NCBI GenBank assembly: GCA_018609755.1
Contig: JAHENZ010000226.1
Location: 1-37,723, forward strand
Source: Salinivenus sp.
Lineage (GTDB): Bacteria; Bacteroidota; Rhodothermia; Rhodothermales; Salinibacteraceae
Direction of reading: 5' to 3'
DNA length: 37,723 bases
Of this stretch, positions 4,656 through 13,829 are shown piece after piece; the stretch's first letter is position 1, and every line of letters begins with the position of its first letter. The notes under the pieces are model-generated. The model did no database searches. It was not told the origin of the DNA and saw nothing but the letters and a program-made list of their open reading frames with translations. The position numbers and the translations under genes were made by a program.

Positions 4656-5528
4656 CTATACTGGGATCTCCCCCTTTTCTGATTCGTCCGACGGAGCCTC
4701 AACGGACGCAATGTCAGCTCTCTTGATCGGGGCTCGAAGCATGCCCATCACGCTCTGGTCTTCAGGGGCGTCCCACCCGTGCAGCCCCAACTCGATGGCC
4801 GAGGGATCGTCGCGCAGCCGGAACGACCGCCCGATGCGGTCCCAGAAGGAAAAGAGGGAGCTATAGTTTGAGTCCGTCTCCGGCTGCCAGCGCGAGTGGT
4901 GCACTTTGTGCATGTTGGGCGTCACGATCACCGTCCGGAGCGCCCGGTCCACCCACTCCGGCAGCCCCACATTGGCGTGGTGGAACTGGACTACGGCAAA
5001 CATAACCGTCTCGTAGAGCACCAGCTCCCACAGGTAAATCCCGAACAGAAGAATCACCCCCAGACGGAGCGTCGAGGAAATGGCAATCTCGCCGACGTGG
5101 AAGCGACTGGCCGTCGTTACGTCCATGTTTGGGTCGTTGTGGTGGACCCGGTGGAAGCGCCAGAGGAACGGGATCACGTGGTTGATGCGGTGCCACACGT
5201 ACATCCAGGCGTCGAGCAAGAGCAGCGCGCCGAGGGCGTGTCCCCAGCTTGGAAGGCCGACTGCTCCAAACCAGTGGAGCAGACCGATGACCTGCTGATC
5301 GGCCCAAAGTGCCGCCGCGCCCCAGAGCCCCACGAAGACGACGGAGATCAAACCGGCGTTGAGGCCCCCGAGCAATAGGTTGCGCAGCGCGTGCTTGCCT
5401 CGTTCTTTTGGGGCCTTTTGGAAGTATTCGAAGAACGGATGGGCCGTCTCCCAGAGCATCAGGACCACCAGCCCGACGAGCATGGCGATCGTTTGGGTCT
5501 GCTTGAGGACGTCGAGAAGGGGAGCCAT
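4656..5528 (-). CDS. Sterol desaturase / fatty-acid hydroxylase superfamily protein
   Basis: A 290-residue membrane di-iron enzyme. The eight-histidine signature of the superfamily is present: HRINH, HRVHH, FHHAN and HKVHHS. Four or so hydrophobic segments surround these boxes. The family hydroxylates or desaturates sterols, carotenoids or fatty acids; the substrate here is unknown. An in-frame TTG at 5615 would extend it by 29 residues, but that extension overlaps the 3' end of the Cys-rich peptide gene and contains no family feature, so ATG 5528 is preferred. The leader has an ACGAATCC motif shared with other genes here. It is the last gene of the minus-strand block running from 11829. Confidence 0.85.
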   Translation of the reverse strand: MAPLLDVLKQTQTIAMLVGLVVLMLWETAHPFFEYFQKAPKERGKHALRNLLLGGLNAGLISVVFVGLWGAAALWADQQVIGLLHWFGAVGLPSWGHALGALLLLDAWMYVWHRINHVIPFLWRFHRVHHNDPNMDVTTASRFHVGEIAISSTLRLGVILLFGIYLWELVLYETVMFAVVQFHHANVGLPEWVDRALRTVIVTPNMHKVHHSRWQPETDSNYSSLFSFWDRIGRSFRLRDDPSAIELGLHGWDAPEDQSVMGMLRAPIKRADIASVEAPSDESEKGEIPV

Positions 5529-5602
5529 GAGCGAATGAGGATTCGTTTCAGTTCGGATCTCGTAAGGGTCAAGAAAGTGGGACTGGTCGAGCTCCTGTTC
5601 GG

Positions 5603-5740
5603 TTACCGCCGACAATTACAACAGCCCTTGCAACAGCCGCAGTTGTCACATCGGTTGCTACAACGACACCCGCACTGTTTGCAGGAGCCACTGTACGATC
5701 GAGAGTGTCTGGAGGTATGTCGAGAACAGCAGTGATTCAT
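5603..5740 (-). CDS. Small cysteine-rich peptide (metallothionein-like candidate)
   Basis: A 45-residue reading frame with 13 cysteines, several as CC, CxC and CxxC (GSCKQCGCRC, DNCGCCKGCCNC), ending in Arg-Arg, with a basic His/Ser/Arg-rich front. ATG at 5740 is the first Met next to the Cys-rich part; the frame is open further upstream to 5809. The composition resembles metallothioneins and other thiolate metal-binding peptides, but I recognise no specific family. It sits between the Met-rich cytochrome c gene (stop 5793) and the hydroxylase, all on the same strand. The DNA carries short repeated TGCAACA/GTTGC-like words, so a low-complexity artefact is possible. Expression is not shown by sequence alone. 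Confidence 0.5.
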   Translation of the reverse strand: MNHCCSRHTSRHSRSYSGSCKQCGCRCSNRCDNCGCCKGCCNCRR

Positions 5741-5792: not shown

Positions 5793-6767
5793 TCAATTTC
5801 CGTCCCCACTCGTCGACGGACGTGTCGTATCTGATTTCAATACGTTGGCGGTCCAGGCTCGGCGACGGTCGGCGTGGTTCTCACGAATATCGGCAATCTC
5901 GTTCGCCTCGACCGTGCCCTCGTTCTCGTTGATCGAGGTCCGCACATAGGTGAGGAGCTCCGCGAGTTCGGGATCGGAGAGTCGGGAGCCGAAGGCCGGC
6001 ATCACGCCGTCATAGCGTCTTCCCTCCACCTCGATCGGACCCTCGAGGCCGTGAATAACGATTCGTGCAAGCACAGAAACGTCACCGATCACCCACTCTG
6101 AATCGGTGAGGGGCGGAAACGTCCCCGATATCCCTTGCCCATTTTGGCCGTGACAACTCGCACACTGGCGGTCAAACAACGTTGCACCATCGCGGACTGC
6201 GTCGTCCGGGATTTGTGGGTTTTCTCCTGACACTCCCGACTGGAGCGCAGCGGACTCCCCCATCATCTGTTCGTGCCACTGAGCCATTTTCCAATGCCGG
6301 GCAGCCATCCGCCCCTGCCGTTCGGCGTGCATGCGAGCCATGGTTTCGTGCATGGCGCTCATGTCCCCGTGTCCCATGCGGGGGGAATCGACGGCTGTGT
6401 CTTCCCCTGAATTCCCTCCCCGTCCCATCATTCCCCCCCGACCCATTCGCCCTTGCATCCGACCCATCATCTCTCCTCCTCCATGCCCGTTCATCATAGA
6501 ATCCTTTCTCGCCATCATCCGTCCGTGCATGGCCTGCATTCGTCCCCGCATCCCTTGCATGGGAGACGGCATTGGGGTCCCCATCTGGGCGTACTGGTCC
6601 TTGAGCCACTCATAGCCCTCTGCTAGCGAGTCGACAAGGGCCGTCTCTTCTGGTGCTTCCTCATGGGATCCGGACTGACACCCCCAAACCGAGAGGCCGA
6701 CAACAAATGTGAGGATGATGGTAAGAAGCCTCAATTGGAGCAACCTTACTTTTGCGGGAAGGCGCAT
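5793..6767 (-). CDS. Lipoprotein cytochrome c with a Met/His-rich N-terminal domain
   Basis: A 324-residue protein exported by a Sec lipoprotein signal (hydrophobic residues about 8-28, candidate lipobox V-W-G-C with Cys30). Residues 62-171 contain 25 Met and 7 His among Gly and Arg, in MxxM, MM and MH patterns reminiscent of extracytoplasmic copper-binding proteins. A class I cytochrome c domain follows: heme-binding CASCH at 202-206 and a distal Met in the MPAFG segment near 262. The C-terminus (about 290-324) is charged and unstructured-looking. It should act at the outer face of the membrane or in the periplasm, transferring electrons and perhaps binding copper. Family of the heme domain is clear; the Met-rich part is not one I recognise. 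Confidence 0.8.
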   Translation of the reverse strand: MRLPAKVRLLQLRLLTIILTFVVGLSVWGCQSGSHEEAPEETALVDSLAEGYEWLKDQYAQMGTPMPSPMQGMRGRMQAMHGRMMARKDSMMNGHGGGEMMGRMQGRMGRGGMMGRGGNSGEDTAVDSPRMGHGDMSAMHETMARMHAERQGRMAARHWKMAQWHEQMMGESAALQSGVSGENPQIPDDAVRDGATLFDRQCASCHGQNGQGISGTFPPLTDSEWVIGDVSVLARIVIHGLEGPIEVEGRRYDGVMPAFGSRLSDPELAELLTYVRTSINENEGTVEANEIADIRENHADRRRAWTANVLKSDTTRPSTSGDGN

Positions 6768-6837: not shown

Positions 6838-7518
6838 TCAGGAAGAATTGGCTCGCTGAACTGTCTTTTCCTCACGCCGAGCGGCCTGAGCAATCGTGTA
6901 CAGCCCGCCGAGCGCCGACTCTTTCGGATCCACGACGCCAAGATCGGCGTGGGCGAGGATCGGTTCCAGTTGATACGTGAGGTCGGAAAACAGAAACCGA
7001 GCAACGGGATTCAGCGCACGGCGGAGGAACGACGGCTCTGTCGCCTCTGGAATGAACTTGTCGTAGATGGAGACACGTCCCTCGGGGGTCAGAACTCGGG
7101 CCGCCTCGGTAGCTACCGCCGTAGGATTCGGTACGACCGATAGAATGAGGTGAAGCAGCACGACGTCGAACGCGTCGTCGTCAAACGGCACGGTTTGGGC
7201 ATCCCCGACCCGGGCCTCCACGTCCATGTCAAGGGCCTCGGCTCGCTCTCGCGTGCGGCGCACCATGGCCGGGGCGGCGTCGAGGGCTGTGATGGACGCC
7301 TCGGCCGGTAGGTATTCGAGATCGGAGCCGGGCCCGGAGCCGAGAATCAGGATGCGCTCGTCTCCGGTGAGGGAGAGCCGCTCGATGGCACGCCTGCGTC
7401 CGTCTTCCATGGGTCGGGCCACCCAGTCGTAGATCGGGGCGTAGAGTTGGTATCGGGTGCGGTTCCACCAGCGCGCAAGGTCGGTCGGGGCGGAAGATTC
7501 TTGGGCATCGTGAGACAT
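6838..7518 (-). CDS. UbiE-like class I SAM methyltransferase
   Basis: A 226-residue methyltransferase. After an N-terminal NRTRYQLYAPIYDWVARP region typical of small-molecule and phospholipid N-methyltransferases come motif I RILILGSGPGSDLEYLP (about residues 50-66), the LDAAPAM acidic loop and the DDAFDVVLLHLILSVVP segment, followed by VLTPEGRVSIYDKF. The frame stays open far upstream, but that part is an antisense shadow of the MFS gene; ATG 7518 gives a compact start 50 bases after the MFS stop. The substrate is unknown. It belongs to the minus-strand block with the MFS transporter and cytochrome c. Confidence 0.85.
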   Translation of the reverse strand: MSHDAQESSAPTDLARWWNRTRYQLYAPIYDWVARPMEDGRRRAIERLSLTGDERILILGSGPGSDLEYLPAEASITALDAAPAMVRRTRERAEALDMDVEARVGDAQTVPFDDDAFDVVLLHLILSVVPNPTAVATEAARVLTPEGRVSIYDKFIPEATEPSFLRRALNPVARFLFSDLTYQLEPILAHADLGVVDPKESALGGLYTIAQAARREEKTVQRANSS

Positions 7519-7568
7519 GGTCGCTGAAGTGCGTTGTGATGGAGTGAAGTGGAAAAGAGGGAGCCGGA

Positions 7569-8852
7569 CTATTCCGGCACGGATTCCGTGGACCGAGGTG
7601 CGGTCACGGACGCGTGCGTTCCAAACTCCGGATGCGTCTCCTCCATCCGGAGGAGCACGTAGGCGTCCGAGACGAGCATCGCGGCGGCCACGCCGTAGAA
7701 GGCGATCTCGATCGAGAAGAGGTCGACGGTGAGTCCAATGAGGACGGCCCCCACCGCGTAGCCGAGGTCCCGCCACATGCGGTAGACGCCCAGGCCGGTC
7801 GAGCGCCAGAGTGGATGGGCCACGTCGCCGGCCACCGAAATCAGGTTCGGATAGTGGAGCGCCATGCCCACGCCCGAGAGCCCGGAGAAGAGGATCCAGA
7901 GGGCGTATCCCTCGACGAGAACCATTCCGAGCACGCCTGCGCCGGCCAGGAGGAGTCCCGCCACGATGGGCGGCTTGCGCCCTACCTGATCCCCGAGGCG
8001 TCCCGTGTACACCTGCAGGAAGTAGGCCCCGCTGTGCACGCCGACGACGACCCCGATCTGGGCGGGGTCGAGGCCCTGCGCGGCGAGAAACAGCGGAAAT
8101 CCGATCCACACGAGCGTGTCGACAAAGTTCTCGACGTGCCCCGCCTGCGCGGCGGCGAAGAGGGTCGGATCTTCGTACGTGGCCCGTCGGACGATGTCCC
8201 AGAACGGAAGGTCGGCGTCGTCCCGATCCTCCCCCGAGGCCCCACCCGCCTCGGCCTTCGCGTAGGGGAGCGTTTCCTCAATCCAGAACACCGCAATGAG
8301 CAGGGCGAGAGCGACGACGCCCATGAGGAAGTAGAACGGCTCCGGGCGAAGGCTGTACGACGCGGCAATCACGCCGGTGAGCCACGCCCCAACGGCCACC
8401 CCGCCGTAGCCGAAGGCCTCGTCGATGCCCGCCGCCAGCCCCCGCTCGCTCGGCCCGGCCAGCTCGATCTTCGAAATCATGCTCATGCTCCACGCCACGC
8501 CCTGGTTGACGCCGAGCAGGACGTTGCCGACGGCAACCCACCCCCAGCTCGGCGCAAAAATCAGGAGAAAGGGAATCGGGACGGCCGACAGCCAGCCGGC
8601 GATGAGAACGGGCTTTCGCCCGTAGGCGTCTGCCCACTTCCCCGAGTACAGGTTGAGAAGGGCCTTCACCAGACCGAAGCTCACGACGAACGAGCCAATC
8701 ACGACCATCGACTCGACGCCGAAGGTCTCGTCCGCCATCAGCGGGACGACGGTGCGTTCGGTGCCCATCGTGAGCCCGACGGCGAAAACCGTGAAAACCT
8801 GGAGGCTGAACTGTTTCCAGTTTTCTCGAATGCCTTGCGTTGGATGTTGCAT
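7569..8852 (-). CDS. MFS transporter
   Basis: A 427-residue major facilitator with about 12 hydrophobic segments in two halves. Motif A is GKWADAYGRKP between TM2 and TM3, and its degenerate repeat GRLGDQVGRKP starts the second half. A charged loop near residues 195-215 separates the halves. The substrate cannot be read from sequence; drug or metabolite efflux is usual for the family. Because it follows the rhodanese-MBL gene in the same unit, export of a sulfur compound or a thiol conjugate is a reasonable guess. Its leader holds a CACTGAACACGAATCATC motif similar to those before the genes at 10902 and 5528. Confidence 0.85.
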   Translation of the reverse strand: MQHPTQGIRENWKQFSLQVFTVFAVGLTMGTERTVVPLMADETFGVESMVVIGSFVVSFGLVKALLNLYSGKWADAYGRKPVLIAGWLSAVPIPFLLIFAPSWGWVAVGNVLLGVNQGVAWSMSMISKIELAGPSERGLAAGIDEAFGYGGVAVGAWLTGVIAASYSLRPEPFYFLMGVVALALLIAVFWIEETLPYAKAEAGGASGEDRDDADLPFWDIVRRATYEDPTLFAAAQAGHVENFVDTLVWIGFPLFLAAQGLDPAQIGVVVGVHSGAYFLQVYTGRLGDQVGRKPPIVAGLLLAGAGVLGMVLVEGYALWILFSGLSGVGMALHYPNLISVAGDVAHPLWRSTGLGVYRMWRDLGYAVGAVLIGLTVDLFSIEIAFYGVAAAMLVSDAYVLLRMEETHPEFGTHASVTAPRSTESVPE

Positions 8853-9142: not shown

Positions 9143-10267
9143 TTATCCCACGGCGCAGCGATTGCCCCCGGCTTCGAGGTCGACGATCGTCTCGTCATCC
9201 GGCCAATCGCCGGTCTCGTTGCGGGCAATGACGGTCTCGTGATTCGGCGGCGTGGGCGGCACACGTTCGGTCACGGTGTCTACGAACCGATCCTCCGACC
9301 ACTGCAGCGCCTCAACCTGACGTTTGACGTCCCCCATCGGCGCGCCGACAACCTCCCCGTCGAACGGTACTGGCTCGGACGCGTGACCAGGCAACACTGT
9401 GATCTCGTCCGAAAGCTGAGCCAATCGTTGAAGCGAGGAGTAGAGCCGGCGGGCCTTGCGTCGTCCCTCCTCCGGACCAGCGTCTAGATCCGGGCGCCCC
9501 ACCCCGTTCAGAAACAGCGTGTCCCCCGTAAAGAGTGCGTTCTCGCCAAGCCGATAGGACGTGCTTTCCGGTGTGTGTCCCGGGGTGTGCACAGCCCTAA
9601 GCATCGCATCACCCACCGCGACCTCGTCCCCGTCGTCGAGCGACCGGTGGGCAAAGGACACGCGATCCTGGGTCGGAAGATAAAGGGAGGCCCCCGTGGC
9701 CTCAGAAAGGCGGCGGGCACGCGAGAGGTGGTCGGCGTGGACGTGCGTATCGAGCACGGCCGTGATCGTCCAGCCCCGGTCCGACGCCTGCTCTTCGTAA
9801 ACCTCCGGCGAAAGTGCCGGGTCAATCACGAGCGCCTCCTCTCCGCTCCCGATGAGGTACGAGAGACACCCCTTCCCCGTCCGGCGAAGCTGGACAATCT
9901 CGGCATCAGGAACGTACCGTGTGGCAGCATTCCAGGCAACGGTCCAGGCCCGCAGCCCGCCCTGTAGTGAATACGCTTCTACCCCCTGCTCACGGAGCCG
10001 ACGCGCAGCCGTTCGACTCGTCTTGCCCGCCCCGCAGACCGTGACGACAGGGCCGTCCTCCGGTATCGCACGGTCGTCGAATACGTCCTCTCGTCCCGCC
10101 TTCAGGGCGTGGTACCCACCCACGTGACGGCTCCCCGGTACGTGCCAGTCCTCAAAATCGTCGTGGGGCCGCACGTCGAGCACCCCGACGGACGTGCCCT
10201 TCGCAAGTGCATTTCGAAGTTCGTCGACTGTCACCTCCGGAACGTCTGTGGTTTGTGCATCGGTCAT
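9143..10267 (-). CDS. Rhodanese - MBL-fold persulfide-dioxygenase-like fusion protein
   Basis: A 374-residue two-domain cytoplasmic enzyme. Residues about 10-112 are a rhodanese domain with the catalytic Cys78 in the loop VCGAGKTSR. Residues about 120-340 are a metallo-beta-lactamase fold with THVHADH (His175, His177, Asp179, His180), HTPGHT (His227), GDTLF (Asp249) and LPGH (His295), as in ETHE1-type persulfide dioxygenases and glyoxalase II relatives. The expected role is handling sulfane sulfur: transfer by the rhodanese and oxidation of persulfide to sulfite. The rhodanese is N-terminal, the reverse of several described bacterial persulfide dioxygenase-rhodanese fusions. From memory, haloarchaea encode proteins of this layout ending in a similar NRCAV tail, which would fit exchange among halophiles. 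Confidence 0.88.
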   Translation of the reverse strand: MTDAQTTDVPEVTVDELRNALAKGTSVGVLDVRPHDDFEDWHVPGSRHVGGYHALKAGREDVFDDRAIPEDGPVVTVCGAGKTSRTAARRLREQGVEAYSLQGGLRAWTVAWNAATRYVPDAEIVQLRRTGKGCLSYLIGSGEEALVIDPALSPEVYEEQASDRGWTITAVLDTHVHADHLSRARRLSEATGASLYLPTQDRVSFAHRSLDDGDEVAVGDAMLRAVHTPGHTPESTSYRLGENALFTGDTLFLNGVGRPDLDAGPEEGRRKARRLYSSLQRLAQLSDEITVLPGHASEPVPFDGEVVGAPMGDVKRQVEALQWSEDRFVDTVTERVPPTPPNHETVIARNETGDWPDDETIVDLEAGGNRCAVG

Positions 10268-10350: not shown

Positions 10351-10902
10351 TCAACGGCCAAAGCTCCAGCCGATGCCGACAGTCCCCCACGGCCCGAGCG
10401 GAGTGGACTCAAAGGTGTCCCCACCAATCGAAATCGATTCCCCGTTCAGGGTGTACGAGAGCCCGACCACCGGACTCACGTAGAGGTTGCCGAGGCCTAT
10501 GTACCACTGATATCCTCCACGCACCCCAGCGGAATACCGTAGGTGCCTTTCGCTCGTCTGACTGGACCGATGGGTCACGTCGAGTCGAACGATGCCGACT
10601 TCCGGTCCGACGTAAAAGCCCCCGGGGCTCTCTCCGAAAAAGCGTTCGAAATGAAGTTCGGCCCCGAAAGGAGAAGCGCTGAAGCGGTCATTCCCGTGAA
10701 GAGACCTCGGAATTTCAAGGCTGAAGACTTCGACCTCGTACTTCCATGCCCCCGCCTGAACGGCTACGTGGCCGCCGGCGCCGCCGAAGGTGTACGCGAG
10801 CGGTTCGACCTCAAGATCGACGTGATGCGCCTCCGGTTGGGCACTGGTCGGAACTGCGCAAACAAAGAGAATGATCGCGAGAAATGAAGAACGAAATCTC
10901 AT
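10351..10902 (-). CDS. Small outer-membrane beta-barrel protein
   Basis: A 183-residue protein with a cleavable signal peptide (hydrophobic residues 5-18, cleavage probably after TSA in VPTSAQ). The rest shows alternating hydrophobic and polar strands rich in Gly, Tyr and Trp (GGFYVGPEVGIVRLDV, GGYQWYIGLGNLYVSPVVGL) and ends near an aromatic residue (GWSFGR). This is the OmpW/OmpA-like barrel style, with eight strands likely. No specific substrate can be named. It is the first gene after the second putative ArsR-site at about 11014-11033, so it may head the sulfur operon as an outer-membrane component. Confidence 0.7.
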   Translation of the reverse strand: MRFRSSFLAIILFVCAVPTSAQPEAHHVDLEVEPLAYTFGGAGGHVAVQAGAWKYEVEVFSLEIPRSLHGNDRFSASPFGAELHFERFFGESPGGFYVGPEVGIVRLDVTHRSSQTSERHLRYSAGVRGGYQWYIGLGNLYVSPVVGLSYTLNGESISIGGDTFESTPLGPWGTVGIGWSFGR

Positions 10903-11136: not shown

Positions 11137-11829
11137 CTAAGAAGTACCGCCAGGGGTAGTGCCGCTTTTCACCGGTCGTCCCTCGTCGATCCAGTCGGGA
11201 AGCCCCTCCTGGAGACGACGAGCCGTGTGCCCCTCCTCTCGCAGCCGTCGCACCGCATCGTCGGAGTAGACGCAGTACGGCCCCCGACAGTAAGCCACGA
11301 TTTCCTGGTCGTCCGGCAGCTCATCTAGATGCTCCTCGATTTGATCGATCGGAATCGAGCGAGCGCCCGGAATGTGACCTGTCTGGTACTCTGCCTCGGG
11401 ACGAACGTCCAGAACGAGTACGTCATCCGTCTCCAGGCGCACTTCCAGCTCCTCCGGCGACAAGGCCTCCATTTGCTGCCGATCCGACAAGTACCGCTGC
11501 ACTGTTTCCTCTACCTCTGCCAGACGGGATTCTGCTAGCGTACGAACGGCCCGCCATGCGCGGTAGACCTCCGGCCCAGCGAGCATGTAATAGGCACGCG
11601 TTCCCTCCTTTCGACGGCGCACAAGGCGCTCCCCTTTCAGCACCTGAAGGTGGCGGGAGGTGTTGGCCACGGACATCTCCGTCTCTTCTGCCAGCTCGTC
11701 AACCGTGCGCTCCCGCTGCGCCAGCAGGTCAATGAGTTCCAGCCGCGACGCGCTGGAAAAGGCCTTCCCAATGCGGGAAAACTGATCGTAAATTTCGTCC
11801 TTGAAGGCGCGCTTTCGGCTATTTTCCAT
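11137..11829 (-). CDS. ArsR-family winged-helix regulator with C-terminal rhodanese domain
   Basis: A 230-residue fusion. Residues about 15-95 form an ArsR winged helix (AFSSASRLELIDLL, recognition helix MSVANTSRHLQVLKGERLV). Residues about 122-220 form a rhodanese domain with the active loop A-Y-C-R-G-P-Y-C, giving the catalytic Cys181 plus Cys186. The DNA-binding domain has no cysteine, so it lacks the Cys pair of BigR/SqrR-type persulfide sensors; sensing could instead run through the rhodanese cysteines, which is inference. ArsR proteins usually repress and are released by their ligand. A palindrome abuts its start codon, suggesting autoregulation. It lies upstream of the persulfide-related block on the same strand. 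Confidence 0.9.
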   Translation of the reverse strand: MENSRKRAFKDEIYDQFSRIGKAFSSASRLELIDLLAQRERTVDELAEETEMSVANTSRHLQVLKGERLVRRRKEGTRAYYMLAGPEVYRAWRAVRTLAESRLAEVEETVQRYLSDRQQMEALSPEELEVRLETDDVLVLDVRPEAEYQTGHIPGARSIPIDQIEEHLDELPDDQEIVAYCRGPYCVYSDDAVRRLREEGHTARRLQEGLPDWIDEGRPVKSGTTPGGTS

Positions 11830-12593: not shown

Positions 12594-13829
12594 TCAGGCA
12601 AACGCATTCTCCCCCGTCACGTCCTGCCCCACGACGAGCGTATGGATCTCGTGCGTGCCCTCGTAGGTGACCACGCTTTCGAGGTTTGCCATGTGTCGCA
12701 TAACGGGATACTGGCTCGTCACGCCATTTCCGCCGAGCATCTGCCGGGCGGACCGTGCCACGTCCAATGCCATGTCGCAGTTGTTGCGCTTGGCGAGGGA
12801 GACCTGCTGCGGGCGCATTGTGTCCTGATCCTTGAGCGTGCCGAGGCGCCAGTTGAGGAGCTGTGCCTTCGTGATCTCCTGCACCATCTCCACCAACCGC
12901 TCCTGCATGAGCTGAAAGCCGCCAATGGGCTTTCCGAATTGGTGCCGGTTCCGCGCGTGCTGACGAGCAGCGTCGTAGCAGGCCATCGCCGCTCCCACCG
13001 TTCCCCAGCAGATGCCGTATCGCGCCTGCGTGAGACACGAGAGCGGTCCTTTCAGCCCCTCCACGTCCGGCAGCCGGTGTGCATCCGGCACTCGTACGTC
13101 GTCCAGAACGACCTCGCTCGTGACCGCCGCGCGGAGAGACCAGGTGTCGTCGATCGTCGGCGTCGAGACCCCGTCGCGGTCCGTCTCCACCAAAAACCCG
13201 CGGACCACGTCATTCTCGTCCTTCGCCCAGATGACGGCCACGTCCGCGATTGTCGCATTGGTGGACCAGCGCTTGTGCCCCTCCAAAATCCAGTCGTCCC
13301 CGTCCCGGCGCGCACGGGTCTGCATCTCGGAGGGATTCGAGCCCACCTCCGGCTCCGTGAGTCCAAAGCAGCCGACGGCCTCCCCCTGCGCCAGCTGCGG
13401 CAGCCACCGCTCCTTCTGTGCCTCTGTGCCGTACCGCCAGATCGGGTACATCACCAACGAGCCGGTCACGGAGCAAAACGACCGGAGACCAGAGTCCCCC
13501 CGTTCTACTTCCTGCATCATGAGACCGTACACGATGTTGCTGTGTCCCCCGCCTCCGTACGCCTCCGGCAGATTTGGCCCCAACAGGCCGTGCTCCGCGA
13601 ACGCCGGAATGAGGTGTTTCGGGAACTCCGCCCGCTGCGCATACTTTTCGATGATCGGCTGAACCTCTTCCGTCACGAACGCTCGGATCTCGTTCCGAAT
13701 CGCCCTCGCATCATCGGACAGCAGATCATCGAGATTGTAATAGTCGGGAGCGTCGAAGGCCGCCGGGTCCCAGGTGTCCGTACTCTGCTCTTGATTGTTT
13801 GTGGAACGGGTGGTGGCTGCGTCGCTCAT
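12594..13829 (-). CDS. Glutaryl-CoA-dehydrogenase-like acyl-CoA dehydrogenase
   Basis: A 411-residue FAD flavoenzyme oxidising acyl-CoA at the alpha-beta bond. It follows the glutaryl-CoA dehydrogenase subfamily across its length: SLVMYPIWRYG, GCFGLTEPEVGSNPS, a KRWSTNATIADV active-site segment, LKDQD, LAKRNNCDMALDVARSARQMLGGNG, and the catalytic base Glu390 in TYEGTHEIHTLVVGQ. In this subfamily the enzyme also decarboxylates glutaryl-CoA to crotonyl-CoA in lysine and tryptophan breakdown; that exact substrate is likely but not proven. The N-terminal 30 residues are an acidic extension. It stands alone, with a pyrimidine-rich, Shine-Dalgarno-free leader. Confidence 0.85.
   Translation of the reverse strand: MSDAATTRSTNNQEQSTDTWDPAAFDAPDYYNLDDLLSDDARAIRNEIRAFVTEEVQPIIEKYAQRAEFPKHLIPAFAEHGLLGPNLPEAYGGGGHSNIVYGLMMQEVERGDSGLRSFCSVTGSLVMYPIWRYGTEAQKERWLPQLAQGEAVGCFGLTEPEVGSNPSEMQTRARRDGDDWILEGHKRWSTNATIADVAVIWAKDENDVVRGFLVETDRDGVSTPTIDDTWSLRAAVTSEVVLDDVRVPDAHRLPDVEGLKGPLSCLTQARYGICWGTVGAAMACYDAARQHARNRHQFGKPIGGFQLMQERLVEMVQEITKAQLLNWRLGTLKDQDTMRPQQVSLAKRNNCDMALDVARSARQMLGGNGVTSQYPVMRHMANLESVVTYEGTHEIHTLVVGQDVTGENAFA

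Follow-up and report, generated by a model that had tools for sequence, protein, structure and literature searches.

Here we describe a short cysteine-rich reading frame, referred to as the candidate peptide gene, in a 37,723-nucleotide stretch of DNA (the window, which is contig JAHENZ010000226.1 from position 1 to 37,723) from Salinivenus sp., whose assembly (GCA_018609755.1) comprises 5.0 Mb in 328 contigs and is estimated to be 96% complete and 5% contaminated. The frame lies within a run of genes on the minus strand that encodes, in transcription order, an ArsR-type helix-turn-helix (HTH)/rhodanese protein, a 183-amino-acid protein, a metallo-β-lactamase (MBL)-rhodanese fusion protein, an MFS transporter, a methyltransferase, a cytochrome, the candidate peptide, and a hydroxylase (Table 1). 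Both flanking genes are on the same strand, 52 bp away on the side of the cytochrome (stop at 5793) and 74 bp away on the side of the hydroxylase (ATG at 5528). This agrees with the first-pass annotation of this DNA, which had placed a 45-residue peptide with 13 cysteines directly after a Met/His-rich cytochrome, without stating its strand. We regard the frame as probably a gene, metallothionein-like in kind; our preferred reading, held tentatively, is a small unannotated gene for a putative cytosolic metallothionein-like chelator, with Cu(I) as its most likely ligand, outside any known metallothionein family.

Read on the minus strand between 5740 and 5603, the frame translates to MNHCCSRHTSRHSRSYSGSCKQCGCRCSNRCDNCGCCKGCCNCRR*. 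Cysteine accounts for 13 of the 45 residues (28.9%, the "nearly 30%" of the earlier description) and is arranged as CC, CxC, and CxxC, with 11 of the 13 falling within residues 20 to 43. The remainder consists of seven Ser, seven Arg, four Asn, four Gly, three His, two Lys, and one each of Met, Thr, Tyr, Gln, and Asp; Ala, Val, Leu, Ile, Phe, Trp, Pro, and Glu are absent, so that Met1 and Tyr16 are the only hydrophobic or aromatic residues. The peptide has a mass of 5.05 kDa and an isoelectric point (pI) of 9.0, with a positive charge (seven Arg and two Lys against one Asp), and no signal peptide was seen in it by eye. Metallothioneins are generally defined by low mass, high cysteine content, CC/CxC/CxxC arrangements, few aromatic or hydrophobic residues, and the formation of thiolate clusters with d10 metal ions. 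The candidate peptide shows the first four of these features. AlphaFold2 predicted no fold (predicted local distance difference test score [pLDDT] of 51), which would be expected for an apo-metallothionein and equally for a sequence that is not a protein, and thus does not discriminate between them.

The cysteine content is not a chance outcome of base composition. All TGY codons on the sense strand across the candidate peptide gene are in the Cys frame (13, 0, and 0 in the three frames). When the 264-bp gap was dinucleotide-shuffled 5,000 times, no frame of at least 20 codons reached nine cysteines, the highest count being eight, and 60 shuffles of the entire window gave cysteine shares no higher than 17.6%. 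A control set of 2,614 small open reading frames (ORFs), drawn from 366,266 bases at 92 loci of the same order, peaked at 20.6%, and further scans of gene neighborhoods gave top shares of 22% (32 loci, 403,346 bases) and 21% (10 loci, 151,527 bases). The spacing of seven of the cysteines, CxxCxCCxxCCxC, occurs once in the window and in none of 100 shuffles, although this pattern was derived from the candidate peptide itself and is hence biased. Since it was the cysteines that first drew attention to the frame, the shuffle and control figures argue against composition as the cause, and not against the extremes that a large scan turns up. The frame is, in any case, a real and improbable sequence feature.

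An improbable sequence need not be a gene, and the alternative to be weighed first is that the frame belongs to intergenic or decayed DNA and is open and rich in cysteine codons by accident, or that it is the complement of a Gln/His-rich sequence on the opposite strand. A 66-codon antisense frame of this kind is indeed open here, RCA being the complement of TGY; it extends over 118 codons from stop to stop and is partly antisense to the hydroxylase gene. We compared codon choice in these frames with 204 in-frame windows from the window's own genes and with 995 out-of-frame windows. A codon score as low as that of the Cys frame was found in 11 of the 204 gene windows, and a score as low as that of the Q-rich part of the antisense frame in none; 3 of 204 score equal to or lower than the whole 66-codon antisense frame. 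As an antisense gene, the sequence would also need a purine at the end of all 10 non-Gln codons that precede Gln or His, compared with 264 of 601 such codons in the window's genes (p = 0.00027). The Q-rich part of the antisense frame thus fails the codon usage expected of a gene in this genome, and the frame, which is short and matches neither Pfam nor a plasmid, was rejected despite being protein-like by eye. The same holds for an A/V-rich frame (ITAVLDIPP...), likewise protein-like by eye, which has no Pfam match and a codon score reached by none of the 204 gene windows. Codon choice therefore weakly prefers the Cys frame over its two open rivals. Once the Cys codons are removed, the Cys frame scores 0.056, compared with a gene mean of 0.19. 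An N-terminal extension of the candidate to GTG 5809 is open and not favored, and an extension of the hydroxylase gene to TTG 5615 is unsupported, because the congener's gene begins at the matching ATG.

The candidate peptide is an orphan within the genomes and databases searched. In its own genome it matches only itself, a second match (E = 0.4) being due to chance. Across 114 genomes of the order, seven were matched at E ≤ 0.05, one of them its own genome; the best of the others had E = 0.0026, and none was Cys-rich in a similar way. These weak matches (E = 0.0026 and worse) were not accepted as relatives, given that they hold zero to seven cysteines when read in frame and, for the most part, overlap long frames in other readings. 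Among 395 genomes of the phylum, the candidate itself was the sole match at E ≤ 0.001. A peptide-word search gave 141 word matches in genome_contigs and 13 in viral_contigs, none confirmed as relatives. There was no match in plasmids and phages (tblastn, E ≤ 10, with the BLAST low-complexity filter on), in Pfam, NCBIfam, and PHROGs at E ≤ 1, or among PDB sequences at E ≤ 10. In the literature on this group, searched at the level of abstracts, we found no report of a metallothionein-like peptide of this kind.

The seven-Cys spacing pattern is found more widely, with at least 118 matching stretches in genome_contigs and at least 120 in the viral set. Among the matches listed (238 loci), 202 distinct frames are open across the pattern, 58 of them without a CCCC run, and by our reading only one of those listed is a lone, small, Met-started Cys-rich frame. 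This frame, at L282 on an IMG/VR contig, where the pattern itself spans 13520-13558 on the minus strand, is a free-standing 48-residue frame with 12 cysteines and the same seven-Cys spacing; with a BLASTP E value of 0.82, it has no real similarity to the candidate peptide and was not taken as a relative. At two other loci, L153 and L211, Cys-rich tails close long frames (CDGCDCCGNCCEC... and CDGCDCCSNCCSC...). Within the order, the pattern occurs in 12 of 114 genomes, in each of which one locus was inspected; in the 11 genomes other than our own, the TGY-rich sequence that carries it either lies opposite a Gln-rich frame on the other strand or overlaps a longer frame, showing that false Cys-rich frames of this type are common.

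The orphan status of the candidate, this abundance of false Cys-rich frames, and a Cys-frame codon score within the out-of-frame range are what a chance-open sequence would produce. They stand against the shuffles, the confinement of all 13 TGY codons to one frame, and the poor codon choice of the antisense frame, and on balance we consider it rather unlikely that the candidate is not a gene.

The genes around the candidate are listed in Table 1. At the head of the run stands the ArsR-HTH/rhodanese protein, the presumed regulator, so the first-pass view of a block under a rhodanese regulator held as far as gene order goes, while its control over the candidate is something that we infer. The cysteines of this protein are confined to its rhodanese part (CRGPYC), and judging from the sequence, metal sensing by Cys in its HTH half looks unlikely. 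A congener, G009, has the regulator, the 183-amino-acid protein, the MFS transporter, the methyltransferase, and the hydroxylase in the same order (65 to 83% identity). Its run lacks both the cytochrome and the peptide, suggesting that these form a variable block that was gained here or lost there.

Table 1. Features of the candidate peptide locus in the window
Feature	Coordinates	Strand	Remarks
Candidate peptide gene, 45 codons, 13 Cys	5603..5740	minus	ATG 5740, stop TAA 5603-5605; from translation
Rival antisense frame, 66 codons, Gln/His-rich	5535..5735	plus	
Fatty acid hydroxylase family protein	4656..5528	minus	Best NCBIfam match OlsE, below its cutoff; directly downstream of candidate
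Cytochrome, Met/His-rich N-terminal part and one cytochrome c domain	5793..6767	minus	PF00034, 6.1e-12
SAM-dependent methyltransferase	6838..7533	minus	
MFS transporter	7569..8852	minus	Identity 83% in congener, 79% on haloarchaeal plasmid
Rhodanese and MBL fusion protein	9143..10267	minus	
183-amino-acid protein	10351..10902	minus	No Pfam match; outer-membrane-like by eye; also in congener's run
ArsR-type HTH and rhodanese domain, presumed regulator	11137..11829	minus	

The immediate neighbor of the candidate, the Met/His-rich cytochrome, carries a lipobox-like VWGC (by eye) and is of a type associated with copper genes. In G009, its nearest relative is at a separate locus, in a row of genes for an oxidase (multicopper), CopB, a methyltransferase, DUF302, the cytochrome, and a methyltransferase. 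Ten more near-full-length relatives were found in eight of the 395 phylum genomes (E ≤ 1e-36), all eight belonging to one family of the class. Within the stretches read, copper-type neighbors (a CopA-type oxidase, CopB, a methyltransferase, or DUF302) are present at 7 of these 11 loci, including that of G009, and an oxidase at 5 (in one case a partial match where the stretch ends). The other four loci lack all of these neighbors, as do those of two weaker, domain-only relatives (7 of 13 with such neighbors overall). In the Salinivenus genome itself, CopA and CopB are on another contig, in which no relative of the cytochrome was found. As an observation in its own right, the Met/His-rich cytochromes c (that of the window and those at L079 and L433-L442) are a family adjoining CopA/CopB, methyltransferase, and DUF302 genes in the copper resistance islands of this class.

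A second line of neighborhood evidence leads to sulfur. The MFS transporter is 79% identical to a protein on a Natrononativus plasmid and 64 to 76% identical to proteins on four other haloarchaeal plasmids, these five being the records inspected out of 118 with an MFS match. A relative of the MBL-rhodanese protein is close to the MFS gene at four of the five loci, immediately before it at three, and TusA, DsrE, and YeeE/YedE genes are present at three; at the Natrononativus locus there are a TauE gene and an MBL gene truncated where the stretch ends, with no MBL-rhodanese match. This recurrence among haloarchaeal sulfur genes suggests that the core of the run acts on sulfane sulfur or thiosulfate. 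It also raises the possibility of gene exchange between domains for the MFS and MBL-rhodanese genes. Sulfur carriers such as TusA, DsrE, and rhodanese have a fold and one active cysteine or a few. The candidate might instead be a polythiol sink or carrier, its cysteines accepting not metal but the persulfide sulfur that the run's rhodanese proteins generate or sense. Besides the presence of two such proteins in the run and the haloarchaeal sulfur genes, the lack of Cys in the ArsR half would favor this, as sensing would then fall to the rhodanese loop. Nevertheless, none of the five haloarchaeal loci holds a small frame with more than 15% Cys, the peptide is unlike the carriers just named, and its immediate neighbor is the copper-type cytochrome, making this alternative very unlikely.

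Equally improbable is that the frame is a Cys-codon-rich leader on which ribosomes slow at low cysteine to tune the hydroxylase gene, as with the short, Cys-codon-rich polycysteine regulatory ORFs that lie upstream of other genes in mycobacteria and are likewise without codon skew (PMC9094748). The Cys codons do concentrate toward the 3' end, but the candidate is internal to the run and does not open it, the gap that leads to the hydroxylase gene has no terminator-like site on its minus strand, the RNA fold is no better than that of shuffles (z = 0.78) so that no attenuator structure is seen, the hydroxylase is not a known sulfur gene, and 13 Cys in 45 codons would seem to exceed what an attenuator needs. 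The window has no Rfam match.

Compared with known systems, a metallothionein-like peptide at this locus would stand apart. Eukaryotic metallothioneins (those of vertebrates and the fungal copper thioneins) share with it a Cys content of about 30%, the CC/CxC/CxxC arrangements, and hardly any hydrophobic or aromatic residues, but no sequence match was found, and the candidate has one main Cys block where vertebrate metallothioneins have two domains. The bacterial metallothioneins SmtA, BmtA, and PmtA (Pfam family Metallothio_Pro) resemble it in being small and Cys-rich, with some His, and, as the lack of a signal suggests for the candidate, cytosolic. However, the candidate does not belong to the SmtA/BmtA family by the Pfam, NCBIfam, and PDB searches above, SmtA has 9 Cys compared with 13 here, no fold is predicted for the candidate, and the presumed regulator carries a rhodanese domain. 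Cyanobacterial metallothioneins are described as controlled by ArsR/SmtB family regulators (PMC8790569) and three bacterial metallothioneins as binding 3 to 4 Zn (PMC10612145). The haloarchaeal CPxCG zinc finger microproteins, as outlined in PMC11241148, are also small Cys-bearing proteins of halophiles, but the candidate differs by its 13 Cys and the lack of CPxCG. A copper gene survey of Haloferax mediterranei reports that it found no metallothioneins there (PMC9240420).

Several observations weigh against a metallothionein-like gene. Besides the orphan status noted above, the peptide is basic in a window whose proteins are acidic (median pI of 5.0 for 29 genes), an acidity that, together with the haloarchaeal matches of the MFS transporter, fits a halophile. 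Its codon usage falls near the bottom of the range for real genes, and 35% of the 995 out-of-frame windows score at least as high, so that codon usage is no proof of coding; 8 of its 13 Cys codons are TGT, while the window's genes favor TGC by 48 to 23. No promoter-like match was found for it, the run of G009 lacks the peptide (and, with it, the cytochrome and the MBL-rhodanese gene), and in the sets scanned no similar small Cys-rich frame lies beside the relatives of the cytochrome or CopB. In favor of the metallothionein-like gene are the frame lock, the shuffles, the near absence of hydrophobic residues, and the same-strand position after a cytochrome of the copper-associated type. This position, together with the metallothionein-like Cys pattern and composition, is why we favor a Cu(I) chelator. 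The thiophilic metal or sulfur binding proposed in the first pass stays the most coherent guess, now backed by the copper-type cytochrome and the sulfur link of the MBL-rhodanese and MFS genes, while the real peptide and its metal binding are both what we still infer.

If this reading is correct, the candidate gene would be transcribed together with the run and translated, and the thiolates of the peptide, with up to three His, would enclose a small cluster of thiophilic ions, with Cu(I) as the first ligand and Zn or Cd possible. The peptide may thereby keep free cytosolic metal low, and the presumably periplasmic Met/His-rich cytochrome would deal with copper outside. A further-reaching version, which we think quite unlikely, is that of a lineage-restricted, possibly newborn metallothionein-like peptide that arose in a halophile copper/sulfane-sulfur operon without descent from known metallothioneins, its thiols used to buffer Cu(I) as well as to store persulfide under the rhodanese-ArsR regulator. 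Should the frame not be a gene, it would serve as a useful warning of how common Cys-rich frames are on the strand opposite Gln-rich DNA. If it is real, its product would be a metallothionein-like peptide linked through its position to genes for copper handling and for sulfane sulfur, and an example of how such peptides may arise afresh and evade annotation.
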